Virus record (IMG/VR): IMGVR_UViG_3300005530_000030 | Location: 1-53,930 of that record | From: a virus | Direction: 5' to 3' (one strand) | Length of the DNA: 53,930 nt | Shown: positions 1-51,700 of the stretch, one piece after another | Layout: each line of letters opens with the position of its first letter | How positions within the stretch are numbered: the first letter of the stretch is position 1 | The notes under the pieces: model-generated | The model's database searches: none | The model's input: only the letters and a program-made list of their open reading frames with translations | Told to the model about the DNA's origin: nothing | Translations under genes and position numbers: made by a program

Positions 1-405
1 GTGGATGGGCCGACGACAAAAGATCGGGGCGAGTGGGGCGAATCCCTTATCGACCTTATCGTGGATGAACACAAGCATTACTGGCTATACTGTTTCCTTG
101 GAATGACCCTGAGGGGCATTCTGTGGTGGACTCCCGTGGCCGGGGTTTTTGTGTGGTGGTTCTCGACCCTTGGCGGCAAGGACTTCAACTCGGAAATCCT
201 TCTTATGGTAAGCGCCTACGCCGCCGTCATCGTGTTGGGCCTGGGCGTCCTATTCCCGCTCACCTACTGGCTTGCGTCCAAGGTAGCCCCCCAGTCTACC
301 GACTATGTGGGATGGGCTGAAGGGCTCTATGGCGCCCTCTATGGGGCGGTTCTGAGCCTTGCGGTCCTGATGGTCATGGTGATTATCGCCCTGAGCCACC
401 TATGA
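1..405 (+). CDS. Small integral membrane protein
   Basis: A 134-residue protein read from a GTG at the first base, so the true start may lie upstream of the window. It has a short charged N-terminus and about three hydrophobic segments: residues 28-55, 65-92 and 108-132. I recognise no family. Its stop overlaps the ATG of the next tiny reading frame (ATGATGATG at 402), suggesting translational coupling. A holin or other envelope function is possible but nothing visible decides it. Confidence 0.6.
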   Translation: MDGPTTKDRGEWGESLIDLIVDEHKHYWLYCFLGMTLRGILWWTPVAGVFVWWFSTLGGKDFNSEILLMVSAYAAVIVLGLGVLFPLTYWLASKVAPQSTDYVGWAEGLYGALYGAVLSLAVLMVMVIIALSHL

Positions 406-491
406 TGATGAAGAAATGGTGGCTTTCTCTGTGGCGGCGGATTCGTCCAGGTCGCAATGACCATCTCTACTACCCAAATACCCACTTCTAA
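402..491 (+). CDS. Possible 29-residue basic peptide
   Basis: Starts at ATG 402, overlapping the stop of the membrane protein gene, and ends just before tRNA-Ile. The product is Lys/Trp/Arg rich (MMMKKWWLSLWRR at its start) and has no recognisable domain. Support is only the overlapping stop-start junction; it could be a chance frame. Confidence 0.3.
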   Translation: MMMKKWWLSLWRRIRPGRNDHLYYPNTHF

Positions 492-501
492 AGAAAAGGT
501 C

Positions 502-573
502 TGGCCTGTAGCTCAACGGTTAGAGCGGGCAACTTATAATTGTCAGAACCGGGTTCAACTCCCGGCAGGCTAA
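502..573 (+). tRNA. tRNA-Ile (anticodon TAT)
   Basis: Complete cloverleaf: acceptor arms tggcctg/caggcta, D-stem gctc/gagc, anticodon stem ggcaa/ttgtc with loop cttataa, T-arm ccggg-ttcaact-cccgg, discriminator A. The anticodon at 535-537 is TAT, reading AUA. No CCA is encoded. Most bacteria decode AUA with a lysidine-modified CAT tRNA, so a direct TAT isoacceptor is a phage-type supplement. Confidence 0.88.
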
Positions 574-580
574 AAACCTC

Positions 581-586
581 TAAATA
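581..586 (+). promoter_or_regulatory. Late-promoter-like TAAATA box before first fibre gene
   Basis: TAAATA in context CTCTAAATACC, the core of the T4 late promoter TATAAATA. The same box recurs before many transcription units in this window. A start about 6-7 nt downstream would fall near 592, inside the following hairpin, so the new RNA would lack the hairpin's left arm. Confidence 0.6.
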
Positions 587-622
587 CCCCTAGCTTTCTG
601 CCATCCAGAACTAGGGGTATTT
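582..622 (+). terminator. Hairpin: terminator and possible Shine-Dalgarno mask
   Basis: A 12-bp inverted repeat, AAATACCCCTAG at 582-593 with CTAGGGGTATTT at 611-622, follows tRNA-Ile and is followed by a T-rich stretch. It could terminate the tRNA transcript. The right arm also contains AGGGG, the only ribosome-binding-like sequence before the TTG at 626. Confidence 0.7.
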
Positions 623-625
623 TCT

Positions 626-2080
626 TTGGCTGTTTCCCTGTTGCCGGTGGATGTAGATGTCCAGACCTTCTTTAATTGGGTCACGGCAACAAACACCATC
701 ATCTCTACTATCAACACCGTCGTGGTCACTGCGAACTCGGCGGGCTCGACTACGACCGGAAATGCCATTATAAACGGCGTTTTTGCCGTAAACACCGGGG
801 TCATCGGAGTACTTCAAGGCGGGACGCTCGGCGTCCCTGGCGTGATAAATCTTGGCTCGAATGTCGATTTTCTCGGCAACAAGCTCTCGGGCAACAACAG
901 CTTCTTGATCAATGTCGGCTCAGTTGTAAGCTTAAACTCGACGGTAATCGTCGGAAATACAATCACCGCCGTTTCGGTCACGGGCAATCAGGTTTTCGCA
1001 AATACTGCCTCGGGAAATATTTCAAGCTTTGTGACCCACACCGGAAATTCGGTCACAACAAATACCGCCTCGGGAAATAACGCCAGCTTTGCAAACGTCG
1101 CCGCCACGGCTCTCCTAAACGTGGCCGGGGCTTTCTTCTCAGTAAATTCCAGCAAGCTACACTTTAATGGCTCGGACTTCACAAGTCTTGTGCCTTTCAT
1201 CAATATCTCGAATAATGGCGTGGCCGTTGTCACCACGACAAATGTCAATTTTAAGAGTCCCGACAGTTTCATCACTTGTAATGTCGTAAATCAAGGTGGA
1301 AACTGCGATATCACCTTTACGGTCAACACCTCGGGGACGGCCGGGTTGACCCTTGGGGCTTCGGCGGCCAACACCATCATCTATAATGACGGGGGCTCAA
1401 CCCCGAATGGCGACGTTTCCTTCCAATTTTTCAAGGGAAACACCACGGTCAAGATGACAAATGTCATCGTGGTGACAAGCATCGCCGGAGGAAATCACTC
1501 GGGAGACCGGCTGACCTTTACTGGCCCGGCAACCCTGAATGCCACGACCTCCAACTCTCTAGTAGTCACGACAAACGTCAACGCCAATCAGCTATACTGC
1601 AACTCAGTAAATTCTATCACGACAGCGACTCTAAACGTCGCCACCATCAATACAGCCACGATAAATTCCGCTTCGGCAAATAATCTTGTGGCAAATACTA
1701 TCGAAGCCAACAATATTCTTATTGCGAATACTGGGGCTCCCACAACAAATGTTGTCACGGATACAGCGATTTACTTGCTGGCAAACACGAATGCTTCCTG
1801 GAATCTTCACGCTTGGGGAATCGGTGCTTATCGAGCAGCCGAGTACTTCCTGACAATTTCCGACCAGAATTCCACAAGCTATCAGGCTGTGAGGCTTACG
1901 GTTATACATGATGGCACCCACGTCCAGCTAAATGAATACTCGATTCTGGCCACAAACGCCACCTACACCACCCTTTCGGCTTTCGATGTCGATATCACCG
2001 TCTCTCAGGTGGTCCTCAAGTATATCAGCGCCTCAACCAATACCGTCATCCAAGGCAAGTGCACAAGGATTGGGGTGTAA
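626..2080 (+). CDS. Tail fibre / virion structural protein
   Basis: A 484-residue, Asn/Thr/Ser-rich protein. After a short N-terminal helix it carries irregular beta-type repeats around GN-x-I and ANT motifs (about residues 60-150 and 310-370). It ends in a roughly 100-residue domain (YRAAEYFLTISDQN... onward) of the type found at the C-terminus of many virion structural proteins of T4-like cyanophages. The TTG at 626 is chosen because AGGGG lies 8-9 nt upstream; GTG 647 is an alternative. It heads a run of plus-strand fibre genes. Role in host recognition is inferred from composition and neighbours. Confidence 0.75.
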   Translation: MAVSLLPVDVDVQTFFNWVTATNTIISTINTVVVTANSAGSTTTGNAIINGVFAVNTGVIGVLQGGTLGVPGVINLGSNVDFLGNKLSGNNSFLINVGSVVSLNSTVIVGNTITAVSVTGNQVFANTASGNISSFVTHTGNSVTTNTASGNNASFANVAATALLNVAGAFFSVNSSKLHFNGSDFTSLVPFINISNNGVAVVTTTNVNFKSPDSFITCNVVNQGGNCDITFTVNTSGTAGLTLGASAANTIIYNDGGSTPNGDVSFQFFKGNTTVKMTNVIVVTSIAGGNHSGDRLTFTGPATLNATTSNSLVVTTNVNANQLYCNSVNSITTATLNVATINTATINSASANNLVANTIEANNILIANTGAPTTNVVTDTAIYLLANTNASWNLHAWGIGAYRAAEYFLTISDQNSTSYQAVRLTVIHDGTHVQLNEYSILATNATYTTLSAFDVDITVSQVVLKYISASTNTVIQGKCTRIGV

Positions 2081-2395
2081 ATGGCTCAGGTTTTTAATAT
2101 TTTCATCGACCAGGGGGCCGATTTTTCCCAAGAGTTTGGAATAGAAGGGGACTTGGCCGGGGGAGAAGTCAGCGGAAAAATGCGCCGGCATTATGAATCG
2201 ACAAATGCCGTGGCTTTCACTTGTTCTTCAAATACTTCGGCAAGCTCCATCACTATCCAACTAAATCATGTAGAAACCGGAAATCTTGTTCCGGGTCATT
2301 ATGTGTATGATGTAAATATCGCTTATTCTGGGCCAAATACTGTCCAAAGAATTATCGAGGGGCTGGCGATAGTCAGTGCTTCGGCAAGCTATTAA
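2081..2395 (+). CDS. Tail appendage protein, BppU-like N-domain type
   Basis: A 104-residue protein starting directly after the previous stop. The pattern 'DQGADFSQEFGIEGD...GKMRRHYES...VPGHYVYDVNI' matches a small beta-sandwich domain widespread in phage tail and baseplate appendages. In other phages this fold anchors receptor-binding proteins. No Shine-Dalgarno precedes the ATG, so coupling to the fibre gene is likely. The family is recognised by pattern only. Confidence 0.65.
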   Translation: MAQVFNIFIDQGADFSQEFGIEGDLAGGEVSGKMRRHYESTNAVAFTCSSNTSASSITIQLNHVETGNLVPGHYVYDVNIAYSGPNTVQRIIEGLAIVSASASY

Positions 2396-2411
2396 GGAGA
2401 ATTTCTGAGAA

Positions 2412-2861
2412 ATGGCGATTCAAATGTCCTCGGGGCTTCGAAATGCCCGCCTCAACAACATCACGGTTTTCGGGGGAAATACCGCCACCACCATCAGCCC
2501 TACCCTAGGCATTTTCGGAAATGGCTCAAAGCCGGCTGACTGCCAAGCGGCGAACACCGGAACCCTCATCTGCACCATCCCTTGTGATGGAAACAATGCT
2601 TGGATGAACACTGCGGTGGCCGGGGTTTTCAGCAAGAACGCTTCCCTGGTGTGGGCCAATACTTCGGCCGGCACGACTAACACCGCTGTGTATTTCCGTA
2701 TCTTCTCTTCAAATAACACCAATCTCGGAAACGTTGTGATGCAAGGATATTGCAACACCGTGGGCGGATCTCCCGGCGACTTGATTCTAGATAACCTTAG
2801 CATTGTGGCCACTCAGGCCGTCAACGTAACTTCTTTCGTAATTACAGACGGAAACGCATAA
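2412..2861 (+). CDS. Phage structural protein of unknown function (copy 1)
   Basis: A 149-residue protein starting 'MAIQMSSGLRNARLNNI' and ending 'SFVITDGNA'. This start and end are typical of a common small phage virion protein of unknown function. AGGAG lies 12-16 nt before the ATG. It is a diverged paralogue of the next gene: both share LRNARL/VRNLRL near the N-terminus, a central FRI strand and a C-terminal TDG-x-A. Probably a beta-sandwich decoration or appendage protein. Confidence 0.65.
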   Translation: MAIQMSSGLRNARLNNITVFGGNTATTISPTLGIFGNGSKPADCQAANTGTLICTIPCDGNNAWMNTAVAGVFSKNASLVWANTSAGTTNTAVYFRIFSSNNTNLGNVVMQGYCNTVGGSPGDLILDNLSIVATQAVNVTSFVITDGNA

Positions 2862-2864
2862 AAA

Positions 2865-3314
2865 ATGGCACTTCAGCTCGAAACCAAAGTCCGCAATCTT
2901 CGGTTAGACACAACCGAAACTTACACCAACACTTCCCCGATTCTATCGATTTGGTCGGGGACAATTCCCGCTAACTGTGCGGCCTCGAATACTTCTGGGG
3001 GCGGATCTCCTACCAAACTTGCCACGCTTACTCTGCCCTCCGATTGGGCCGCTGCGGCCTCAGGTGGTACTAAAGCCAAAAGTGGTACATGGCAAGATAC
3101 AGTGGCCGATGCTACGGGCACCGCTACTTTCTTCCGTATCCACTCGGCCCCCACCGGCCTTACGGCCAGCGCCACGAGCGCCGCAAATGACGAATGCGTC
3201 ATCCAAGGTACAGTCGGGCAAGGCTCGGGCGATATCTCGCTGGATAATACCAGTATCGGCGCTGGACAGCAAATCACCATCACGGCCTTCACTCTGACCG
3301 ATGGGGGGGCATAA
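2865..3314 (+). CDS. Phage structural protein of unknown function (copy 2)
   Basis: A 149-residue paralogue of the preceding gene. It is closer to the common form of the family (PANCAASNTS, LPSDWAAAASGGTKAKSG, FRIHSA, ITAFTLTDGGA). It begins 3 nt after the preceding stop with no clear ribosome binding site, so translation probably depends on the upstream gene. No enzymatic motif is visible. Confidence 0.65.
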   Translation: MALQLETKVRNLRLDTTETYTNTSPILSIWSGTIPANCAASNTSGGGSPTKLATLTLPSDWAAAASGGTKAKSGTWQDTVADATGTATFFRIHSAPTGLTASATSAANDECVIQGTVGQGSGDISLDNTSIGAGQQITITAFTLTDGGA

Positions 3315-10560: not shown

Positions 10561-10566
10561 TAAATA
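10561..10566 (+). promoter_or_regulatory. Late-promoter-like TAAATA box before long fibre gene
   Basis: TAAATA directly upstream of a GC-rich terminator hairpin (10568-10589) and 41 nt before the GTG of the 1007-residue fibre. Initiation 6-7 nt downstream would fall within the left arm of the hairpin. Confidence 0.55.
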
Positions 10567-10567
10567 G

Positions 10568-10589
10568 AGGGCGCCCTGCGCCCTTTTTT
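10568..10589 (+). terminator. Intrinsic terminator overlapping the fibre promoter
   Basis: AGGGCGC (10568-10574), loop CCT, GCGCCCT (10578-10584), with a run of six T at 10584-10589. It ends the upstream module while the adjacent TAAATA box starts the next. Confidence 0.8.
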
Positions 10590-10606
10590 CATTTCTAGGA
10601 TACCGA

Positions 10607-13600
10607 GTGCCGATAGATCCAAATCCGCCCAGAAAGCTCGCCCTCGACCGAGGCACCCAGATCCAAGAAGTCATTTCGGTTGGGTCGAATGTCTATGTCA
10701 ACACTGAGGGAATGTACTTTGTCGGTAATGCCCTCACCGCTATCCCCAATACCTATGCCAACTCCCAGGGCTTCTTTGCCAATGGCCCTCACATCACTGT
10801 CCAGAATAGCTCAGGCTTCTTTATCGACGGCGCCGCAGTAACCGGAGGCGCCGCTACTCCTGGCGGGAATAATCATGATGTCCAGTACAATGATAATGGA
10901 ATTGCGATGGGGGGCTCCGATGGCTTCACCTTCGACCCGACCACAAACAATGTTTTTGTGGCAAATTCTATCACCGCAAATCAGGCGATTGCAAATCAAT
11001 TCTCAGGAAATGATGTCCTGGCAAACACCGGGCATTTCCAGAATGTCGCCGCTAACAACTTCTCGGGAAATCATGCTGTTCTTGTAGACCTGACAGCGAA
11101 TCAGGTCTTTGGTAATACTATAACAGCAAATGCCATTGTCGCAAATACCGGCGATTTCCAGAATGTCACGTCGAATAATATCCAGGGAAATGCTCTTTCT
11201 ATCAACACCATTTCCGCTGTAAACGTCGCCGCTAACAACTTTACCGGAAATCACGTCTCAGTTGTTGATGTGACGGCCAATCAAGTTTTTGCAAACACCA
11301 TAACCGCAAATATCGAGCTTGTGGGCATCACGATAAATGTCGGAGCCAACGTCTACCTAAACTGCTCGACCCTGTTTCTTGGAAACTCCACTGTCAACTT
11401 GGTGGCAAACTCCTTACAGCTTGCCATAGCGAATTCTACCGCCTTGTCTACTATGAGCGTGGCCGGTTTTGCGGCCGGGGCGAATACCACAGCCAACCTG
11501 ACCGGGGTTTTCCTAGGCAACTCGACGGTCAACTCTCTGGCGAACTCCACAACCCTAGCGATAGCTAACTCCACGTCTCTCACAACCCAAAACACGACTG
11601 GCTTCTTTGCTGGAGCCAACGTCAGCATGAATCTCTCGACGGTCTTCCTGGGGAACTCGACGGTCAACACTTCAATCAATTCGGTTTCGGCTACAGTACA
11701 GAACAGCACCGCTGCTGTTGTGACAAACTCCCTTGGCTTCCAAGCTGGGGCGAATGTGGTGGCGAATCTTACCGCTGTGGCTGTGCAGAATTCGACCGTC
11801 AACACGATTGCTCTTGTCTCGGGGGTCACTACCCAAAACTCCACAGCTGCCGTGGTGCTCAATTCTACCGGCCTTGCGTCGGGAGCAAACGTGGTGGCCA
11901 ATCTCACGGCCTTTGCTGTCCAGAACTCGACGGTTAACACCGTCATCACCATCACCACTATCACCCAGCAAAATAGTACCGCTGCTGCTGTTTCGAATTC
12001 GACAGGCTTCTTCGCTGGCGCAAATGTCGCAATGAACCTAACCCAGGTTTCGGTGGGACCAAACAACTTCATTAATCTTTCCAGCATGTTTCTTGGAAAC
12101 ACCGGAAACACCCTCATCAACTCCACCGGGATTTTCATCGGGGCCAATGTTGTCTGCAACCTCACCACCATGTTTGTGGGAGATGGCTCAGCAAACACCG
12201 TCCAGAATAGCTCAGGCTTTTACCGGAATGGCTCTCTCATCGGAGGGGGAAGCTCGCCGGGGGGCTCCGATACCTTTGTCCAGTTTAATGACGCCACGAC
12301 CTTTGGAGGCACCGCTGGCTTAACCTTCACGAAAGGGACAAACAATGTCTTCATCGGCAACACCCTAAGCGTCGGGGCGAATACCATCGCCAACCTGACC
12401 GGAATCTTCCTTGGAAATTCCACGGTCAACTCTCTGGCGAACTCCACAGCAATCCAGGTCTTGAATTCCACGGCCACCGTGGGGCTCTCCACGGCTGGAC
12501 TATCGGCCGGGGCAAACACCGTGGCAAACCTGACTGGTGTTTTCCTTGGGAACTCGACGGTCAACAGCTATGCCAACTCTATCCAGCACGGAATCGTGAA
12601 CTCGACGGCAAACCTCATTGCCACTCCGATTTCAGTCACGGTGCAAAACTCCACAGCTGCCGTAGTTTCTAACTCCACTGGTCACTTTTCCGGGGCGAAT
12701 GTCGTTGCCAATCTCACCGCTGTGGCCATCCAGAATTCGACGGTTAATTCTGTACTTCTGATTACAGGTCTTACTACCCAAAACAGCACAGCCGCTGTGG
12801 TAACAAACAGCACCGGATTCTTTGCTGGAGCCAACACCGTAGCCAATCTCACGGCGGTTCAATCTCCTATCCTTACAGCAACCTCGAATCTCACGACCAA
12901 TACTCTTACTGTCAATACCATCGTGGCGGCGGGCTCGCCCATCAATCTTGCGGCAAATGCCACCTATCTTTTCAATATCATAAGATCCGATGGGTGGGCT
13001 CTAAGCCCTGTGGTTCTCTGGCAAGGAGTCAACACCACAACGAATAGCACTTTTAATATCAACTGGCAAAGTGCAATCGGAGGTTTTCAAGATACTTGGC
13101 AATATTTTATTTTGGACGTTTTTTGCGGGGCCGCAAGCAGTAATCTTGGACTTCAGTGTCAACTAATCAATGCCACCGGATCAGTAATAAGTGGGGCAAA
13201 TTATCAATGGGTATATGTGTGGAGTTTTACAAATTCCACCGCTGCTACTTCTGGTACATCTGGATTATTAGGAGATACAAATTTTCCTATTCAAGATGGT
13301 TCCCAAGGAATTTCTAATACCGCAAATTCTAGTGGTGTCCGAGCACAATTCAAAATTTGGAATCCTTATTCTGCAAATAATGCCCTTTTTGGAGCGACAG
13401 GAACAGGTTATCGACCTTATATTGATTTCACAGCATCATTTTTTAATTCTGTTGCGGCTGGCCCCGAGACCCATACGGGCACCGTTAGATATTCATCTAC
13501 CGATGTTGGTAATATTTCTGGACTTCACTTCTTTTTCACAAATACAGTAGTAACTAATATAAACTGCATCCGAAGAAGTTGGACTTTGACTGGATTCCCA

Positions 13601-21806: not shown

Positions 21807-21968
21807 GTGGCTATCGCCGCTCTAGCCTTCCAATATGCTGGGGGGACCGTAAAGAAGGTAATCAACACATGGTTTTTCCAAAAAGGGAAAACCATTTACG
21901 GTCCCTTCCAAAACCAAGACGATGCGATGACTTTCGCCAAGGGACTTCTCCCGGTAGCTAATACCTAA
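21807..21968 (+). CDS. 53-residue hypothetical protein
   Basis: GTG 21807 to TAA 21966-21968. The product contains 'FFQKGKTIYGPFQNQDDAMTFAKGLLP', a short beta-hairpin plus helix pattern. No membrane segment. The stop codon is part of a TAAATA box. Unknown function. Confidence 0.5.
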   Translation: MAIAALAFQYAGGTVKKVINTWFFQKGKTIYGPFQNQDDAMTFAKGLLPVANT

Positions 21969-21971
21969 ATA
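21966..21971 (+). promoter_or_regulatory. TAAATA box six bases before an ATG
   Basis: TAAATA overlaps the stop of the preceding small gene and ends 6 nt before ATG 21978. If used as a T4-type late promoter the RNA would begin at or next to the start codon. The same spacing occurs at 30605-30617. Confidence 0.35.
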
Positions 21972-21977
21972 CGGGTT

Positions 21978-22787
21978 ATGAAAAAAGATCTTCAAAGCCC
22001 CCCAAAACCCCATAAAAACCCAAAAAAGCTTGGGTTTTATGATAAGCTGCGCAAGGGTATCCAGGGAATCAGAACAGAGATTGTCAAGGACACCCAAAGT
22101 TTCAAAGAAGACGTTTACGCCAAGGTAACTGACCCAAAGCATGACGAGACCAAGAAACAAATGTCGGACGTAAAGAACAAGATTTCCAAGGTCAAGGTCG
22201 ATAAAGAAGGCCACACAGTCGGCATTCGAGAAGCCAAAATTACTCCGGCCCAGGCCCACGGAATTCTAAAACATGCGGGCGGATCTGACAAAGATTACCA
22301 TGCGCTTACTTCAGGCCATGTGCATATCCTGAAACAGCAAGCTTCCATCTATGGGTACAAAAAATCAAAGAACGCCCCCGGCTCCAAAGCTCGGATGTTT
22401 CATCAACATCTAAAGCGAATCGCCTCAGGGGTTAGCGAAGATGTCATGAACTATGGAGCGCCGGCTCGCACGCTACCGGGCACAGGACAGACCCGAAAGC
22501 CATCTGGATACGGTTCCCCAGCCCGTGGCGGGGACGGGAACGGCCTCGGGGCTTCCAAGCAAGAGAAGCCGCCCGGCTATGGAGCGCCAGCCAAAGACCT
22601 TACGCCGGGCACCAGGGCAGGCATGCGACCAATCAAGATTGAATCAGCTGCGACCGGCAAGACTCTCCGGGATATCATCGGGGAAGAGGCAAAGGGTCTT
22701 GATTCCCTGAATATGAAAAATGCTAGAGTAAACCCCGCCCAAAAAGAATATCTGAAAAAAGTTGCTTCCCTAAAAAAGAAGAAATAA
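21978..22787 (+). CDS. Basic protein between neck genes, possible head-interior protein
   Basis: A 269-residue protein rich in Lys, Gly and Pro. N-terminal helical region, then RMFHQHLKRIASGVSEDVMNYG, then three related GYGxPAR/GYGAPAK segments (about residues 157-205), then GKTLRDIIGEEAKG, and a Lys-rich end (LKKVASLKKKK). It lies directly before gene 14, a position where T4 has no such gene. A DNA-binding or scaffold role is inferred from charge only. Confidence 0.55.
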   Translation: MKKDLQSPPKPHKNPKKLGFYDKLRKGIQGIRTEIVKDTQSFKEDVYAKVTDPKHDETKKQMSDVKNKISKVKVDKEGHTVGIREAKITPAQAHGILKHAGGSDKDYHALTSGHVHILKQQASIYGYKKSKNAPGSKARMFHQHLKRIASGVSEDVMNYGAPARTLPGTGQTRKPSGYGSPARGGDGNGLGASKQEKPPGYGAPAKDLTPGTRAGMRPIKIESAATGKTLRDIIGEEAKGLDSLNMKNARVNPAQKEYLKKVASLKKKK

Positions 22788-24450: not shown

Positions 24451-24528
24451 TGGCAGCCTCGGGGGGAATCGAACCCAAACCATCTTCGGAGTCAAAGTCC
24501 GACGTACTGGCCATTGTACTACGAAGCC
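24451..24528 (-). tRNA. tRNA-Gln (anticodon TTG)
   Basis: Acceptor ggcttcg/cgaggct (two G-U pairs), D-stem gtac/gtac, anticodon stem tcgga/tccga with loop ctttgac (TTG), T-loop ttcgatt, encoded CCA at 24453-24451. The T-stem pairs only in its three loop-proximal positions (ttggg/ccccc), a weakness for folding. Confidence 0.8.
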
Positions 24529-24549
24529 TCACCGATGTCAAACGGCTCT

Positions 24550-24750
24550 TTATACAATATGGGAGACTTCTCGCTGTCTGGCAAGAGCCCCGGCCCATCC
24601 CGCCAGTTTCACTTTCTGTTCATGAGTGAACGTTGGCCAGATATCTTTAATCATCATCGGAACCTCTTGGGTCCAATGATATTTTTTTGTTTCATGCCGT
24701 TCCCAGTCAGGACTGAGAACATCTTTATAAGGGTTTTCTTCTTCGGTCAT
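24550..24750 (-). CDS. 66-residue hypothetical protein between tRNAs
   Basis: ATG 24750 with AAGG 6 nt upstream. The product is acidic and Trp-rich (DWERHETKKYHWTQEV, KDIWPTFTHEQKVKLAGWAGALARQR). Sandwiched between tRNA-Trp and tRNA-Gln, so probably expressed on the same processed transcript. Unknown family. Confidence 0.5.
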   Translation of the reverse strand: MTEEENPYKDVLSPDWERHETKKYHWTQEVPMMIKDIWPTFTHEQKVKLAGWAGALARQREVSHIV

Positions 24751-24763
24751 GATCACCTTGGAA

Positions 24764-24837
24764 TGGCAAGGGTGGCAGGAATTGAACCTACTCTTCCGGT
24801 TTTGGAGACCGATGTGCTACCGTAACACTTCACCGAT
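24764..24837 (-). tRNA. tRNA-Trp (anticodon CCA)
   Basis: D-stem gtgt/gcac, anticodon stem tcggt/accgg with loop ctccaaa (CCA), T-arm gtagg-ttcaatt-cctgc, discriminator G and encoded CCA. The acceptor stem atcggtg/caccctt has mismatches at 2:71 and 3:70, so the gene may be decaying or the RNA may tolerate them. Confidence 0.75.
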
Positions 24838-24838
24838 T

Positions 24839-24914
24839 TGGAAGATAGAGTGGGAATCGAACCCACTTTGACGCAGATTTGCAATCTGCCGCTTGTCCAA
24901 CCAGCCCTCTACCT
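24839..24914 (-). tRNA. tRNA-Cys (anticodon GCA)
   Basis: Acceptor aggtaga/tctatct, anticodon stem gcaga/tctgc with loop ttgcaaa (GCA), T-arm gtggg-ttcgatt-cccac, discriminator T as in bacterial tRNA-Cys, encoded CCA. It ends 1 nt before the tRNA-Trp 5' end. Confidence 0.88.
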
Positions 24915-24918
24915 ATAT

Positions 24919-24993
24919 TGGCGAGTCATAAGGGAATCGAACCCTTCTCACCGCCCTGACAAGGCGGGGTTTTAGCCAATAAACTAATGACCC
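24919..24993 (-). tRNA. tRNA-Asp (anticodon GTC)
   Basis: Acceptor gggtcat/atgactc, anticodon stem ccgcc/ggcgg with loop ttgtcag (GTC), T-arm aaggg-ttcgatt-ccctt, discriminator G and encoded CCA. First of a four-tRNA string with Cys, Trp and Gln. Confidence 0.9.
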
Positions 24994-25007
24994 TTTTTAA
25001 CCGGTCC

Positions 25008-25014
25008 TTATTTA
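25008..25014 (-). promoter_or_regulatory. Late-promoter-like ATAAATA box before tRNA string
   Basis: On the minus strand CCATAAATAAGG overlaps the stop of the CADD-like gene and lies 15 nt before the tRNA-Asp 5' end. It matches 7 of 8 bases of the T4 late box TATAAATA. Confidence 0.45.
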
Positions 25015-25649
25015 TGGACTGACGATAGGAAGTTCCATATCGCCCCAGAAGCACTCTTGGCCGCATCAATTGCGATATCTCGTTTTCTATCGTCGATACG
25101 GTCGATTAGGCATTCGGCTTCGAAAGCATGGGATACGTCAGCTTTCTCATGCACAACGAAAAAGTCTAGGGCATGGACCGGAATTCCCGGCCAATTCTTC
25201 TTTATGCCCTCAATCTTTTCCCTGGACACATCCGGCATCTGAGACTCGTAGGCGTACAAAGCACTAACGCCTGCCTCATATGACCGATTGCAGCACAAGT
25301 CAAGAAAGGTGTCTCGGAAGTACAAGGCTTCAGGAGTCACCTTCTTCTTTCTATCAGCTTCAATCCCATCGATAAAGTTCTGCCAAAGGATGGGGTGCGG
25401 AGGCGAGTCCCCCAAGCCTTCTTCATCCATGAGGTTTTGAAGCAAAGAGCGCCGGTCGTCTCTATCGACGCAGTTGCTATGGACGCCGCTCACAAACCGG
25501 GGAAAGGCGTCCACAAACGGCTTGTACTGCACAGCGTAGTTTTGCAGTTGCGCCATCGAAAGCTTTCCTTCTGTCCAATCCCGATAGAAAGGATGGGAAA
25601 GCATTTTCTTGGCGTCGATTTGCTTCTGGATCTCTCTGAGAAGGTTCAT
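25008..25649 (-). CDS. CADD/PqqC-like (heme-oxygenase fold) metal enzyme
   Basis: A 213-residue protein; start ATG 25649 with GGAGA 6 nt upstream (a longer frame would read through the tRNA). It matches the CADD family of the TenA/PqqC superfamily: HPFYRDWTEGKLSMAQLQNYAVQY, FPRFVSGVHSNC, NLMDEE...HPILW, YAYESQMP and a final HALDFFVVH..ADVSH metal-ligand helix. CADD proteins are iron/manganese oxygenases linked to p-aminobenzoate (folate) supply in Chlamydia. A folate-related or other oxidative auxiliary role in infection is inferred. Confidence 0.75.
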   Translation of the reverse strand: MNLLREIQKQIDAKKMLSHPFYRDWTEGKLSMAQLQNYAVQYKPFVDAFPRFVSGVHSNCVDRDDRRSLLQNLMDEEGLGDSPPHPILWQNFIDGIEADRKKKVTPEALYFRDTFLDLCCNRSYEAGVSALYAYESQMPDVSREKIEGIKKNWPGIPVHALDFFVVHEKADVSHAFEAECLIDRIDDRKRDIAIDAAKSASGAIWNFLSSVHK

Positions 25650-25669
25650 GCGTTTCTCCATAGCGAAGT

Positions 25670-25747
25670 TGGTAGCGGGGGAGGGATTCGAACCCTCGAC
25701 CTTCACGTTATGAGCGTGACGAGCTGACCTGACTGCTCTACCCCGCA
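25670..25747 (-). tRNA. Initiator-like tRNA-Met (CAT)
   Basis: Acceptor tgcgggg/ccccgct with an unpaired T1:T72, D-stem gagc/gctc giving A11:T24, anticodon stem tcacg/cgtga with loop ctcataa, T-arm gaggg-ttcgaat-ccctc, encoded CCA. A 1:72 mismatch and purine-11:pyrimidine-24 are hallmarks of bacterial initiator tRNA. The usual three G:C pairs next to the anticodon are not intact (A-C-G/C-G-T). Confidence 0.85.
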
Positions 25748-25848
25748 AAAAAGTCTCCCGTTCGCAGCCACCACTGAGACATGCCTAGGTCGAAACAGCC
25801 GATGACTTGTTCGAACGCATCCCCACGGGACAACGGGGCATTCGAATT
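25748..25848 (-). other. Spacer between tRNA-Ala and tRNA-Met with inverted repeats
   Basis: About 100 bases without a credible gene. An imperfect hairpin at 25810-25846 pairs TTCGAA..GC.CCCC with GGGG..GC..TTCGAA, starting 2 nt after the tRNA-Ala CCA. A weak GTCTC/GAGAC stem followed by six T (minus strand, 25780-25747) may be a poor terminator or processing signal. Confidence 0.4.
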
Positions 25849-25925
25849 TGGTGGAATGCGGTGGGCTTCGAACCCACAACCCCCTGCTTGCAAGGCAGGT
25901 GCTCTCCCAGTTGAGCTACGCCCCC
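25849..25925 (-). tRNA. tRNA-Ala (anticodon TGC)
   Basis: D-stem gctc/gagc, anticodon stem cctgc/gcagg with loop cttgcaa (TGC), T-arm gtggg-ttcgaag-cccac, a CCA at 25851-25849. The acceptor gggggcg/cgcattc keeps a G3-T70 wobble (the alanine identity pair) but has a mismatch at 4:69, and one extra base precedes the ACCA end. Confidence 0.82.
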
Positions 25926-30604: not shown

Positions 30605-30610
30605 TAAATA
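30605..30610 (+). promoter_or_regulatory. TAAATA box six bases before the HNH start
   Basis: TAAATA ends 6 nt before ATG 30617, the same spacing as at 21966-21978. A T4-type late start here would give a leaderless or nearly leaderless RNA. Confidence 0.4.
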
Positions 30611-30616
30611 TACTTA

Positions 30617-31099
30617 ATGGCACTCCTACCGACAAAAGACATCCTACACGAACACCTTTACTATCAAAAAGGTGTTCTTTATTGGCGCATTAATATGAGA
30701 CGAAGACCGGCAGGGAGCGTAGCCGGTCATGCCCCAAAAGGGGAAAAAGATTATTGGGTTGTTGGAATCAACAAAAAGATTTATCGGCGCTCCAGACTAG
30801 TATGGGTATATCACCACGGCGATATACCTGATGGTCTTGTTATAGACCATATAAACCGGAATCGACAAGACGATAGAATTGAGAATCTTAGGTTAGTAAC
30901 AAGAAGACAAAATCAAAGAAATCTAAGCAACCAATCTAAGTATGGAGTAGGAGTTTACCTTGGTAGATGTGCTAGCGGGAATCCACGCCAAAGATATTCA
31001 AGTTCTATAAGCAAAAAAGGAAAGTACATTTTCTTAGGAACATTTGCAACTCCAGAAGAAGCAAGGGAAGCTTATAATAAAGCTTCAAAGGAAGAATAA
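30617..31099 (+). CDS. HNH homing endonuclease with AP2 domain
   Basis: A 160-residue protein. YRRSRLVWVYHHGDIPDGLVIDHINRNRQDDRIENLRL spans the HNH nuclease core (H in YHHG, D-H in VIDHI, N in ENLRLV). After it YSSSISKKGKYIFLGTF-A-T-P-EEAREAYNKA is an AP2 DNA-binding domain. This two-domain set is typical of free-standing homing endonucleases in phages. It sits directly upstream of gene 15, inside the conserved 13-14-15-16-17 order, which marks it as a mobile insertion. Confidence 0.9.
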   Translation: MALLPTKDILHEHLYYQKGVLYWRINMRRRPAGSVAGHAPKGEKDYWVVGINKKIYRRSRLVWVYHHGDIPDGLVIDHINRNRQDDRIENLRLVTRRQNQRNLSNQSKYGVGVYLGRCASGNPRQRYSSSISKKGKYIFLGTFATPEEAREAYNKASKEE

Positions 31100-35566: not shown

Positions 35567-35641
35567 TGGCGCTCCCGACAGGATTCGAACCTGTAACCCC
35601 CGACTTAGAAGGTCGGCGCTCCTCCATTGAGCTACGGGAGC
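35567..35641 (-). tRNA. tRNA-Arg (anticodon TCT)
   Basis: Acceptor gctcccg/cgggagc, D-stem gctc/gagc, anticodon stem ccgac/gtcgg with loop cttctaa (TCT), T-arm acagg-ttcgaat-cctgt, discriminator G, encoded CCA. All stems pair perfectly. It lies directly against the end of gene 17. Confidence 0.92.
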
Positions 35642-36677: not shown

Positions 36678-36980
36678 TCAAGCCCGTCGAATGTACTCCA
36701 GAAGGCTGGTAGTCTTAAGAATACCAACCTCCATATCGGGTTCCCATTCGGCCATGGCTGTAGCCCAAACCGCCGCATTAACTAGAGTGCTAGTCATAAT
36801 GGTAGCGGTTTTTTCATCACAGAAATAGTAAGAAGTTGTTATATCCTTATCTTCAATATCTTTTTTATAGGCAGAAATCACCAAATATTCGTCAGCATAG
36901 CCCTGGTGATAGAAGATAGTAGAACTTCCCAGGGACTTTAGCTGATGTACTTTTTTTATTTCATCTAAGGACAACCACAA
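36678..36980 (-). CDS. 100-residue hypothetical protein
   Basis: TTG 36980 preceded by GGAGA 9 nt upstream. Product MWLSLDEIKKVHQLKSLGS..., alpha/beta, with TTSYYFCDEKTATIMTSTLVNAAVW in the middle. No recognised family. Its ribosome binding site lies in the right arm of the promoter-overlapping hairpin at 36986-37016. Confidence 0.55.
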   Translation of the reverse strand: MWLSLDEIKKVHQLKSLGSSTIFYHQGYADEYLVISAYKKDIEDKDITTSYYFCDEKTATIMTSTLVNAAVWATAMAEWEPDMEVGILKTTSLLEYIRRA

Positions 36981-36985
36981 GTAGG

Positions 36986-37019
36986 ATATCTCCGCCGTTC
37001 TTTGCGACGGAGATATTTA
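36986..37019 (-). promoter_or_regulatory. TAAATA box fused to a Shine-Dalgarno-masking hairpin
   Basis: TAAATA at 37019-37014 (minus). A perfect 9-bp stem ATATCTCCG (37016-37008) / CGGAGATAT (36994-36986) starts inside the box and contains the GGAGA used by the TTG at 36980. Initiation at about 37007 would omit the left arm. Confidence 0.6.
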
Positions 37020-48475: not shown

Positions 48476-48699
48476 TGTGCCATCAAAGCCTCCAGAGTTA
48501 CTTCAGTTTATTGCATAGCTTGTCTTATCATCACAAGTATTCAATAACTGATCTGGAGGGCATGATGCCGTGGGAGCTTAATGTTTATGTCGCTATGCTC
48601 CAAAAAGAACTCCAAAAAATAGAAGAAGCTCAGTCAGCTCCTAAGCAACAAATTCCTCAGCCGACATTCCAAGGGGCCGTTCCCGGTCTTACTTGGTAA
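48475..48699 (+). CDS. 51: gp51-like / T-domain of tail assembly chaperone
   Basis: A 74-residue ORF in the -1 frame relative to the gp26-like gene. Its ATG overlaps that stop (taATG), and the same frame is open upstream to the slippery site. LHSLSYHHKYSITDLEGMMPWELNVYVAMLQKEL is the short helical T-domain type, with a final Gln/Pro tail. T4 gene 51 lies at the same place. It may be made as a fusion of about 310 residues and/or by reinitiation. Confidence 0.65.
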   Translation: MCHQSLQSYFSLLHSLSYHHKYSITDLEGMMPWELNVYVAMLQKELQKIEEAQSAPKQQIPQPTFQGAVPGLTW

Positions 48700-48702
48700 A
48701 TA
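48697..48702 (+). promoter_or_regulatory. Late-promoter-like box before the giant tail gene
   Basis: GGTAAATATC, overlapping the stop of the gp51-like ORF (TAA 48697-48699), 28 nt before ATG 48730. It is directly followed by the hairpin at 48701-48721. Confidence 0.55.
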
Positions 48703-48721
48703 TCGTGTCATGAGCACGATA
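48701..48721 (+). promoter_or_regulatory. Hairpin abutting the Shine-Dalgarno of the giant tail gene
   Basis: TATCGTG (48701-48707), loop of 7, CACGATA (48715-48721). The right arm's last base is the first base of AGGAAG. Initiation 6-7 nt after the TAAATA box (about 48708) would remove the left arm. Confidence 0.55.
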
Positions 48722-48729
48722 GGAAGATA

Positions 48730-51700
48730 ATGCCTTTTTGGGGTAATCTTGGAAGATTTGCGCTTGGTTATACCGCCGCTCGTCTTTCTCAGTCAGTAAG
48801 TCAAACCACAGCCGGCTCTCTGTATATGCAGGGCCGGAATATGTGGAACGCCGTGTCCTCTGTACGGGAATCGCTTGTCCCTGAGAGACTGACTAACTCT
48901 ATTTCAAATGTTGGATTTGGACTTAGCACCTTCCAGCCGGCTCGCCTTCCTCAAAATTTGCATCCGGGCGGGGTCACGGATATCGAGGAGGTTGATCATA
49001 AGTTTACCGGGGCCTACAACAACCTTCTAAAAAGTCTTCGCCAAAATAATCAGGCGATTGCAAAAAGCTTGTCCGAGCATAGCCGGGCCATTCAGATTTT
49101 GCGCTCCGATGTCGCCGGCCTTAAGCGCCAACAAGACCGATTTGAAATGGCTTTCAACCGCATGCGGTATGAAGGCATGGGTCAGGGCGGCGTACAGTCT
49201 CTTGGCTCTATGGGTCAAATGGGCGCCTTTGGAGGCATGGGCGGGGGCATTCAATATGGCCAGAATCACCCATGGCTTCATGCGGCAGCAGCTGGATACG
49301 GACTTTATAGAGGGGGCCGGGCAGCGGCTGGAGGGGCCGCCAGGGCTCTTGGGTTTCGGGGGGCAGCACGGGCCGGGGCAGGTTTTCTTGGGCGTCTAGC
49401 CGGTCGAGCAATCCCCGGTATTGGCTTAGGTCTTCTAGCCTATGATGCCTTTGGCATCGGCCGCAACATGTACCATGGCCAGGGATTTGGCCAAGCTCTC
49501 GCCAACCAATTTGGTTTTGGGGGAGCATATCCAGGAGGCGTGCCGTCTAACGCCGGGGGCGGATGGATGGGCGATGCTCCCGGCACCATTCGAGGCTATG
49601 GGGGCGGATTCCAGGGCGGACAGCTGGGCAACTATGGCTCATCTATGGGATTCCAGGGATCTTTCTCTGGTCATGGGGGGAACTCAAAAGACCAAGAAAA
49701 GGAAGCTATCGAGGGGCTAAAGAAAATGCTCCCCGAAGTCTTAAAAGATAAACTTGAAGTCGAAAGACTTGAATTTGTCTCAAAAGGCAGCATGAAGTTT
49801 AAGGCGGCCGGTCAATTCGTCATTCGAGGAAGTGAAGTTCTTATCTCAGCCGGCACCGTGACCATTGATACCCAGAATCTAAAGCTTTCATCAGGGGCCA
49901 TCCAACAACTTTATAGCAAAATGAATATTGGGGCGGCGGTAGACCAAAAAATCAAAGCCCTTGAAAGCAAAATAGATAATCGCCTGAGAAATATGGGGAG
50001 ACAGGGCGCCGAGCAAAGCTTTTCTCAACAGAGAGAGGCTGAGAGTCGTCGGTTTAGTTCGGCCGAGGGAGCCCAAAGACAAAATCTTCGTTCTCGCCCA
50101 TTTTCTGCAATTCAAGAACACGTTCGACCACACGACAATCGTCATTCCCAAGCCGAGCAAAGATATCGAGACAACTTCCGTTCTCGGCCATTTTCTTCGG
50201 TTCAAGAACATACTCGACCTTCAAGTTTAAGAGACAGACTAGCGGAGGTAGAGCAACAATACCGGGACAACTTTCGCTCCCGGCCCTTCTCATCCGTCCA
50301 AGAAACGGTAAGACCATACGATTCGAGAATGCAAGACGCTCTTTCTCAAGAGCGAGGCTTTCATGGTTCGGGCTATGGTCGCCAAAGTTCTCCAGGTTCG
50401 GGGCTTAGCCGAAATAAGGTAGAAGAAGCTATTCGCCGTTTTGGCGGACCTGAGAAAGTCATGGAAGCTGTTCGCTCCATGGGATGGAAGCAAGCTGTAA
50501 GCCTTATCTTCCGAGGAATTGGTGTCACTTTGGATGTCGTGATGGTGTTGCAAGCCATCAAAATCATTGAAGAGATTCTTCAGGCGTGGGTACCTGAGCA
50601 ATACGGAGGAAAGGAAGGACCGAACTACGGTAAGGTACCTTTGCCTCCTCAAAATCTACAAGAGATGTTCAGTCCTCGGATGGGCAGTGAACACGACCTT
50701 CGCCGAGACCTTGAACAACGACTTGGGATAAAACACCATAACTTGCATGGTCGTTTTGCCAATCACTTAAGAAATCGAGGATTCTCTACTGGAGGGAGTT
50801 TTGGGGCGGAACGGCAACCCAACAAAGGTTCCACCCAACAAATCACTCCCCCTTCTGTTATGCAGCGCCTCAAAAACTGGTGGGGCGGGGGAAGCCGCAA
50901 CCAAACATCTTCAGCGCAGCGCCATCATAACTTACATGGTCGTTTTGCCAACCATCTTAGAGAATATCAAAATAAAATCAGCCCCGAACAATCGGGTATG
51001 GGGCCGCCTGATCTATATGGCTCAGTAGCTGGAGGAACCCAGCTTGGAAATTACGGGGCAAGCATGGTGTTTGGACAGCCAAACACTGGCCGAAATGTGC
51101 GTCCAGCTCCCGGATCTGGATATACTACTCCCGGCAGCACCGTAAACGATATTGGTTATGGGGGTGGTATCGCCGGAAGAATCGGAACATCGGGGGGATT
51201 TGAACCCTATGGCAGCGGCGGGGGAGGATATTCCGGGGGCGGGGCAAGGTCTCCTCAGCAAGGCTCAAACGGCGCTATCAGTGGCGGCGACAGAACTTCC
51301 GGGGGCACCGACCTTGGGTCGGGGGGCGGGGCCGCATATCTCGCCCAGCGCCGACAAAGATTCCAGCAAGAAATAAATGGCGACCCCGAACTACGTCGGA
51401 AGTTAGCTAGACTTATCCAGGCAGAAAACCCCAGGGCGGGTACTGCTGTTATGGAAAGCATGTTCAATCGTCTTGAGTTGATGGAGCAGCAGACTGGTCA
51501 AAGAACTACTATCTCCGATTACTTAAATCGTTCGGGCCGGAATCAGTTTTATGGTCCTATTCGAAGGGGTGCTCTTCCTAATATCAACGAGCAGCAATAT
51601 AATCGTTACAGCGGAAATATTGATGAAGCCTTAAGAGGTTCAAATCAAATCCGAGGGGCCACTGATCAAGGATCTGGAAACGACCCCAACGTAAGACATC

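Follow-up and report, generated by a model that had tools for sequence, protein, structure and literature searches.

In bacteriophage T4, the genes e, soc and 49 have a late promoter in the 5' arm of a hairpin that masks the ribosome-binding site (RBS), and the late RNA lacks the left arm (PMC3014915). The phage homing endonucleases I-TevI, segB and Aeh1 mobE are also gated by hairpins (Gibb and Edgell, PMC2988022). A similar arrangement was found at positions 581-628 of the window, meaning the whole stretch of 53,930 nucleotides analysed (IMG/VR record IMGVR_UViG_3300005530_000030). The window comes from a T4-superfamily phage that is represented solely by metagenome contigs. It contains neck, sheath-stabiliser, tail-tube, baseplate, head-completion, DNA end-protector and terminase genes, and the terminase is closest to that of Sinorhizobium phage phiM12 (42% identity). 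A second contig (G001/L002), which encodes gp6-, gp7- and gp8-like baseplate genes, overlaps window positions 1-3052 at 99.7% and extends about 30.5 kb upstream. The features of the locus are as follows.

502-573, + strand: tRNA-Ile with anticodon TAT, closing the upstream plus-strand unit (ARAGORN; Rfam RF00005, 63 bits)
581-586, + strand: TAAATA, putative T4-type late-promoter box with a predicted start near 592 (genome-wide promoter position; start from T4 spacing)
582-593, + strand: left hairpin arm AAATACCCCTAG, beginning inside the promoter box (perfect 12-nt inverted repeat; shuffle p = 0.002)
596-610, + strand: inner 5-bp stem and 5-nt loop, UUCUG-CCAUC-CAGAA (minimum free energy (MFE) structure)
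611-622, + strand: right hairpin arm CTAGGGGTATTT (MFE structure, inverted repeat)
613-617, + strand: Shine-Dalgarno (SD) sequence AGGGG inside the right arm (SD opening cost, read-through versus late RNA)
618-627, + strand: U-rich, terminator-like tract UAUUUUCUUU after the G+C-rich stem core (sequence; hairpin-plus-T-tract scan)
626-2080, + strand: fibre-type structural gene, 484 aa, predicted TTG start (ORF; coding score 162, simple gene caller)

The two outer arms (582-593/611-622) form a perfect 12-bp inverted repeat. It is extended by the inner stem (5 bp, 596-600/606-610) to a compound stem of 17 bp, and the hairpin as a whole, 47 bases long, is fused to the promoter box just 3' of the tRNA gene, whose end lies 8 nt before the box. 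The MFE of positions 560-680 is -39.7 kcal/mol (z = -2.9), with none of 200 shuffles equally stable. Late initiation at this site would remove -13.4 kcal/mol of folding energy, whereas the shuffles average -1.8 (p = 0.002, the minimum that 500 shuffles can give). The hairpin at 582-622 is not due to chance, and the 12-bp stem beginning in the TAAATA box, as given in the preliminary description, is an exact inverted repeat supported by both the fold and the shuffle statistics. An Rfam search returned tRNAs only and no other RNA family.

The locus shares with the T4 gene e class the position of TAAATA at the foot of the left arm and of the SD in the right arm. It differs in that a fibre-type gene with a predicted TTG start lies behind a tRNA, in its 17-bp compound stem and terminator-like U-tract, and in that TAAATA is not preceded by TA. 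In the homing-endonuclease gates, promoter, hairpin and RBS overlap as they do here, but 626-2080 encodes no endonuclease. Endonuclease genes with the same gate are found in phiM12, where homing endonucleases follow the four sites with the strongest SD masking, and in RHph_I1_18 (one gene), where a lysozyme-like and a baseplate wedge gene also lie behind such sites. As in an intrinsic terminator after a tRNA gene, a G+C-rich stem 8 nt beyond tRNA-Ile leads into a U-rich tract; unlike in such a terminator, the stem incorporates both the putative late box and the next gene's SD, and the U-tract is interrupted.

The SD lies 8 nt 5' of TTG 626. AGGGG is the sole plausible SD before this codon, as had been proposed, and neither of the in-frame alternatives (TTG 641, GTG 647) comes with an SD. 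The product of 626-2080 has no PHROG or Pfam match, and the gene after it matches a tail-fibre assembly PHROG. The preliminary description had also claimed that RNA started at the promoter would leave the SD free, with folding of the two alternative 5' ends as the check. Given T4 spacing, RNA starting near 592 would lack 10 of the 12 left-arm bases, and the computed cost of opening the SD falls from 16.8 kcal/mol in read-through RNA to 2.9 kcal/mol in RNA starting at 591-594. The SD is therefore locked in the former and largely freed in the latter, where some pairing persists (P unpaired 0.08, opening cost about 3 kcal/mol). For T4 gene e the corresponding values are 10.7 and 2.1 kcal/mol. TTG 626 as the start codon, the transcription start and the timing are all predicted.

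Close homologues of the 581 site were found neither in GenBank phages (including by N-terminal tblastn) nor in IMG/VR outside the same virus. The two copies of this virus differ by 8 SNPs in 3,052 bases, all at 1948-2200 and outside the hairpin. The IMG/VR copy is identical at the hairpin, and the searches gave no diverged homologue in which covariation would show. A 15-mer scan with box and left arm hit five contigs; one is the same virus, and the other four are few enough for chance.

The role of TAAATA was examined over 84.5 kb of phage sequence, using as controls the 14 other hexamers with the same letters and gene starts picked by a caller blind to the box. Of the 23 TAAATA copies, eleven are placed 8-55 nt upstream of a called gene, compared with 23 of 522 scrambled hexamers (p = 8e-9). 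The total count of TAAATA is not raised, so the signal is the placement of the copies. By its position genome-wide, TAAATA in this phage acts like a true promoter box. No copy is found on the plus strand in the 9.5 kb upstream of the element. The window lacks the full T4 octamer TATAAATA; gp55 and gp33 were not found in 84 kb of the genome (a fragment), and a phiM12 gp55 query gave no convincing match, so that "late" is a putative class, assigned from kinship and motif.

Several other features of these boxes were noted. An ATG starts exactly 12 nt after the first T of the box in 5 of 23 cases (controls: 3 of 173, p = 6e-4). Four genes, including those for the gp6 baseplate wedge and an HNH endonuclease, have this TAAATA-N6-ATG form (window 21966-21980 and 30605-30619; contig L012 6007-6021 and 2035-2047, minus strand), and their predicted late mRNAs would be leaderless or nearly so. 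RHph_I1_18 has a similar ATG peak at offset 11-12. One TAAATA (25014, minus strand) is found just upstream of tRNA-Asp. The window has seven more tRNA genes on the minus strand (Gln, Trp, Cys, Asp, Met, Ala, Arg; 24451-25925 and 35567-35641).

Each TAAATA was further tested for the folding energy lost if RNA starts 11 nt downstream, relative to dinucleotide shuffles. Box-spanning structure (p <= 0.02) was detected at 6 of 23 TAAATA sites and at 14 of 506 control-hexamer sites (p = 9e-5); with all TAAATA sites pooled, the Fisher combined value is 9e-7. The strongest sites are 581 and the following three.

10561-10607, + strand: putative late box and terminator-like hairpin GGGCGC..GCGCCC with T6; a 1007-aa gene with a GTG start follows (SD not in the stem)
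36980-37019, - strand: second copy of the design, TAAATATCTCCG...CGGAGATAT, whose right arm contains GGAG; TTG 36980 follows (12-bp stem; shuffle p = 0.006)
48697-48732, + strand: putative late box and hairpin TATCGTG..CACGATA with the SD abutting the stem, before ATG 48730 (p = 0.002; SD not masked)

TTG 36980 opens a 100-aa ORF (36678-36980, minus strand). This copy has no U-tract and masks the SD nonetheless, the opening cost being 14.4 kcal/mol in read-through and 2.6 kcal/mol in late RNA. The gene at ATG 48730 is large and its frame is open to the window end. At 10561-10607 the predicted late start falls inside the terminator, from which only late RNA would escape. RBS masking is predicted at two sites only, 581 and 37019; since the SD is free at 10561 and 48697, what the sites of this genome share is a box embedded in a hairpin and not RBS masking.

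The pattern in related phages is uneven. Box-hairpin tests gave a positive result in phiM12 and RHph_I1_18, did not reach significance in DLP6 and S-RSM4, and were negative in XG4. T4, S-RSM4, DLP6 and XG4 show no genome-wide enrichment, and the trait is therefore not uniform across the superfamily. A strict filter (at least 6 pairs, SD covered) returned seven sites in T4; five of these, identified by protein starts, are the published cases e (two promoters), 49, I-TevI and segB. The earlier comparison with T4 gene e is hence upheld, as the filter that recovers it is the one applied to 581.

Some elements carry TAAATA on both strands in (near-)symmetric form (RHph_I1_18 24803-24831, L041; also L116, L133, L146, L229, L244 and L248). 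These would be divergent late promoters with one common hairpin, and in RHph_I1_18 the element lies between head-completion and tail-tube genes. The 581 site was considered as such a palindrome and rejected: its opposite strand reads AAAATA, not TAAATA, and faces the tRNA only.

The reading we consider reasonably likely is that 581-628 is a boundary element, in which a late promoter inside a hairpin gates the fibre gene by termination, RBS masking or both. It would separate the upstream unit of unknown genes and tRNA-Ile from the late structural genes. Polymerase arriving from upstream would make the full hairpin and either terminate at the U-tract or yield read-through RNA in which AGGGG is buried, so that the fibre gene would not be translated early. 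A gp55-type late polymerase would start at about 592 from the TAAATA at the foot of the left arm. Its RNA, without 10 of the 12 left-arm bases, could form neither terminator nor mask, and the fibre gene would be translated from TTG 626. We infer the start site, the temporal classes, termination and silencing from the sequence, and every computable sequence-level step of the preliminary interpretation is borne out. The hairpin is probably also the intrinsic terminator of the tRNA operon: CCCCTAG..CTAGGGG followed by UAUUUUCUUU has the form of one, and the standard scan omits it because of its loop limit of 3-8 nt. The preliminary description had not mentioned this U-rich tract directly behind the hairpin. 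Termination and RBS masking overlap and are not exclusive, and the sequence fits either or both. One point against a boundary element is that fibre genes are not obviously toxic if made early, unlike most documented gated genes.

The hairpin might be nothing but the intrinsic terminator of the tRNA operon, with TAAATA as its A-rich foot and the SD overlap a result of genome compactness. Its place 8 nt after the tRNA and the G+C-rich core running into the U-rich tract fit this, as does the pairing of A-tract with U-tract, which is usual in terminators. We regard it as unlikely, since TAAATA specifically occupies the promoter position in this phage, box-spanning hairpins are enriched for TAAATA over other A4T2 hexamers, and the copy at 37019 masks its SD without any U-tract. 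It is less likely still that promoter and terminator are real and translation starts from TTG 641 or GTG 647, with no translational gating. TTG 626 does lie within a T-rich tract, and the search for N-terminal homologues gave none that would settle the start, but only TTG 626 has an SD at the proper spacing, and the gene caller picked it. A main role in protecting or processing the tRNA 3' end, or in stabilising late mRNA, is very improbable. The hairpin is stable and adjoins a tRNA without an encoded CCA; against this, the full hairpin would be missing from late RNA, and the same architecture occurs with no tRNA nearby at 37019, in RHph_I1_18 and in phiM12.

The box-hairpin design was also searched for across IMG/VR. 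The exact combination TAAATATCTCC..GGAGATAT is found in 67 viral stretches and its box-scrambled hairpin in 26, and TAAATACCTCC..GGAGGTAT in 59 compared with 21. Box plus hairpin is thus 2.6-2.8 times as frequent as box-scrambled hairpins, an imperfect control as AAA also favours pairing with terminator U-tracts. With duplicates removed, a reading frame directly follows 56 of 101 distinct elements and 6 of 34 scrambled ones (p = 9e-5). The downstream genes encode T4-type lysozyme, RuvC-like, RusA-like and endonuclease VII-like resolvases, GIY-YIG and HNH endonucleases, terminase large subunit, tail sheath, head-tail adaptor and tail fibre. Rhizobial T4-superfamily phages and viral contigs commonly carry the design, in front of lysozyme, Holliday-junction resolvase, homing-endonuclease, terminase, tail-sheath and baseplate genes.

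Among the exact-pattern hits, the gate precedes three unrelated types of Holliday-junction resolvase (RuvC-, RusA- and endonuclease VII-like) in different phages (L192, L209, L213, L223, L226 and L239), which suggests selection on gene function and not ancestry. In the RusA-like resolvase family, S-PM2 and some cyanophages carry the complete element and most relatives lack it, which points to its gain or loss as a unit and not to slow variation. We tentatively propose, with somewhat less than even confidence, that non-enteric T4-superfamily phages have a standard "late gate", TAAATA-YCTCC..GGAGR-TATTT-ATG, which would combine promoter box, terminator-like hairpin and RBS mask in one palindrome and would have been attached independently to unrelated genes, among them the three resolvase types, lysozymes, endonucleases, terminase and some virion genes. 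Its spread over unrelated genes may be new, as no paper describing it was found in a search mostly of non-subscription literature. If the proposal is true, a scan for the late-gate pattern would predict late genes and their start codons. With the 581 element, a textbook T4 device would reach the tail-fibre region of a T4-superfamily phage that has not been cultivated. The device can be recognised by pattern across environmental phages and would there mark late promoters, start codons and genes barred from early expression.
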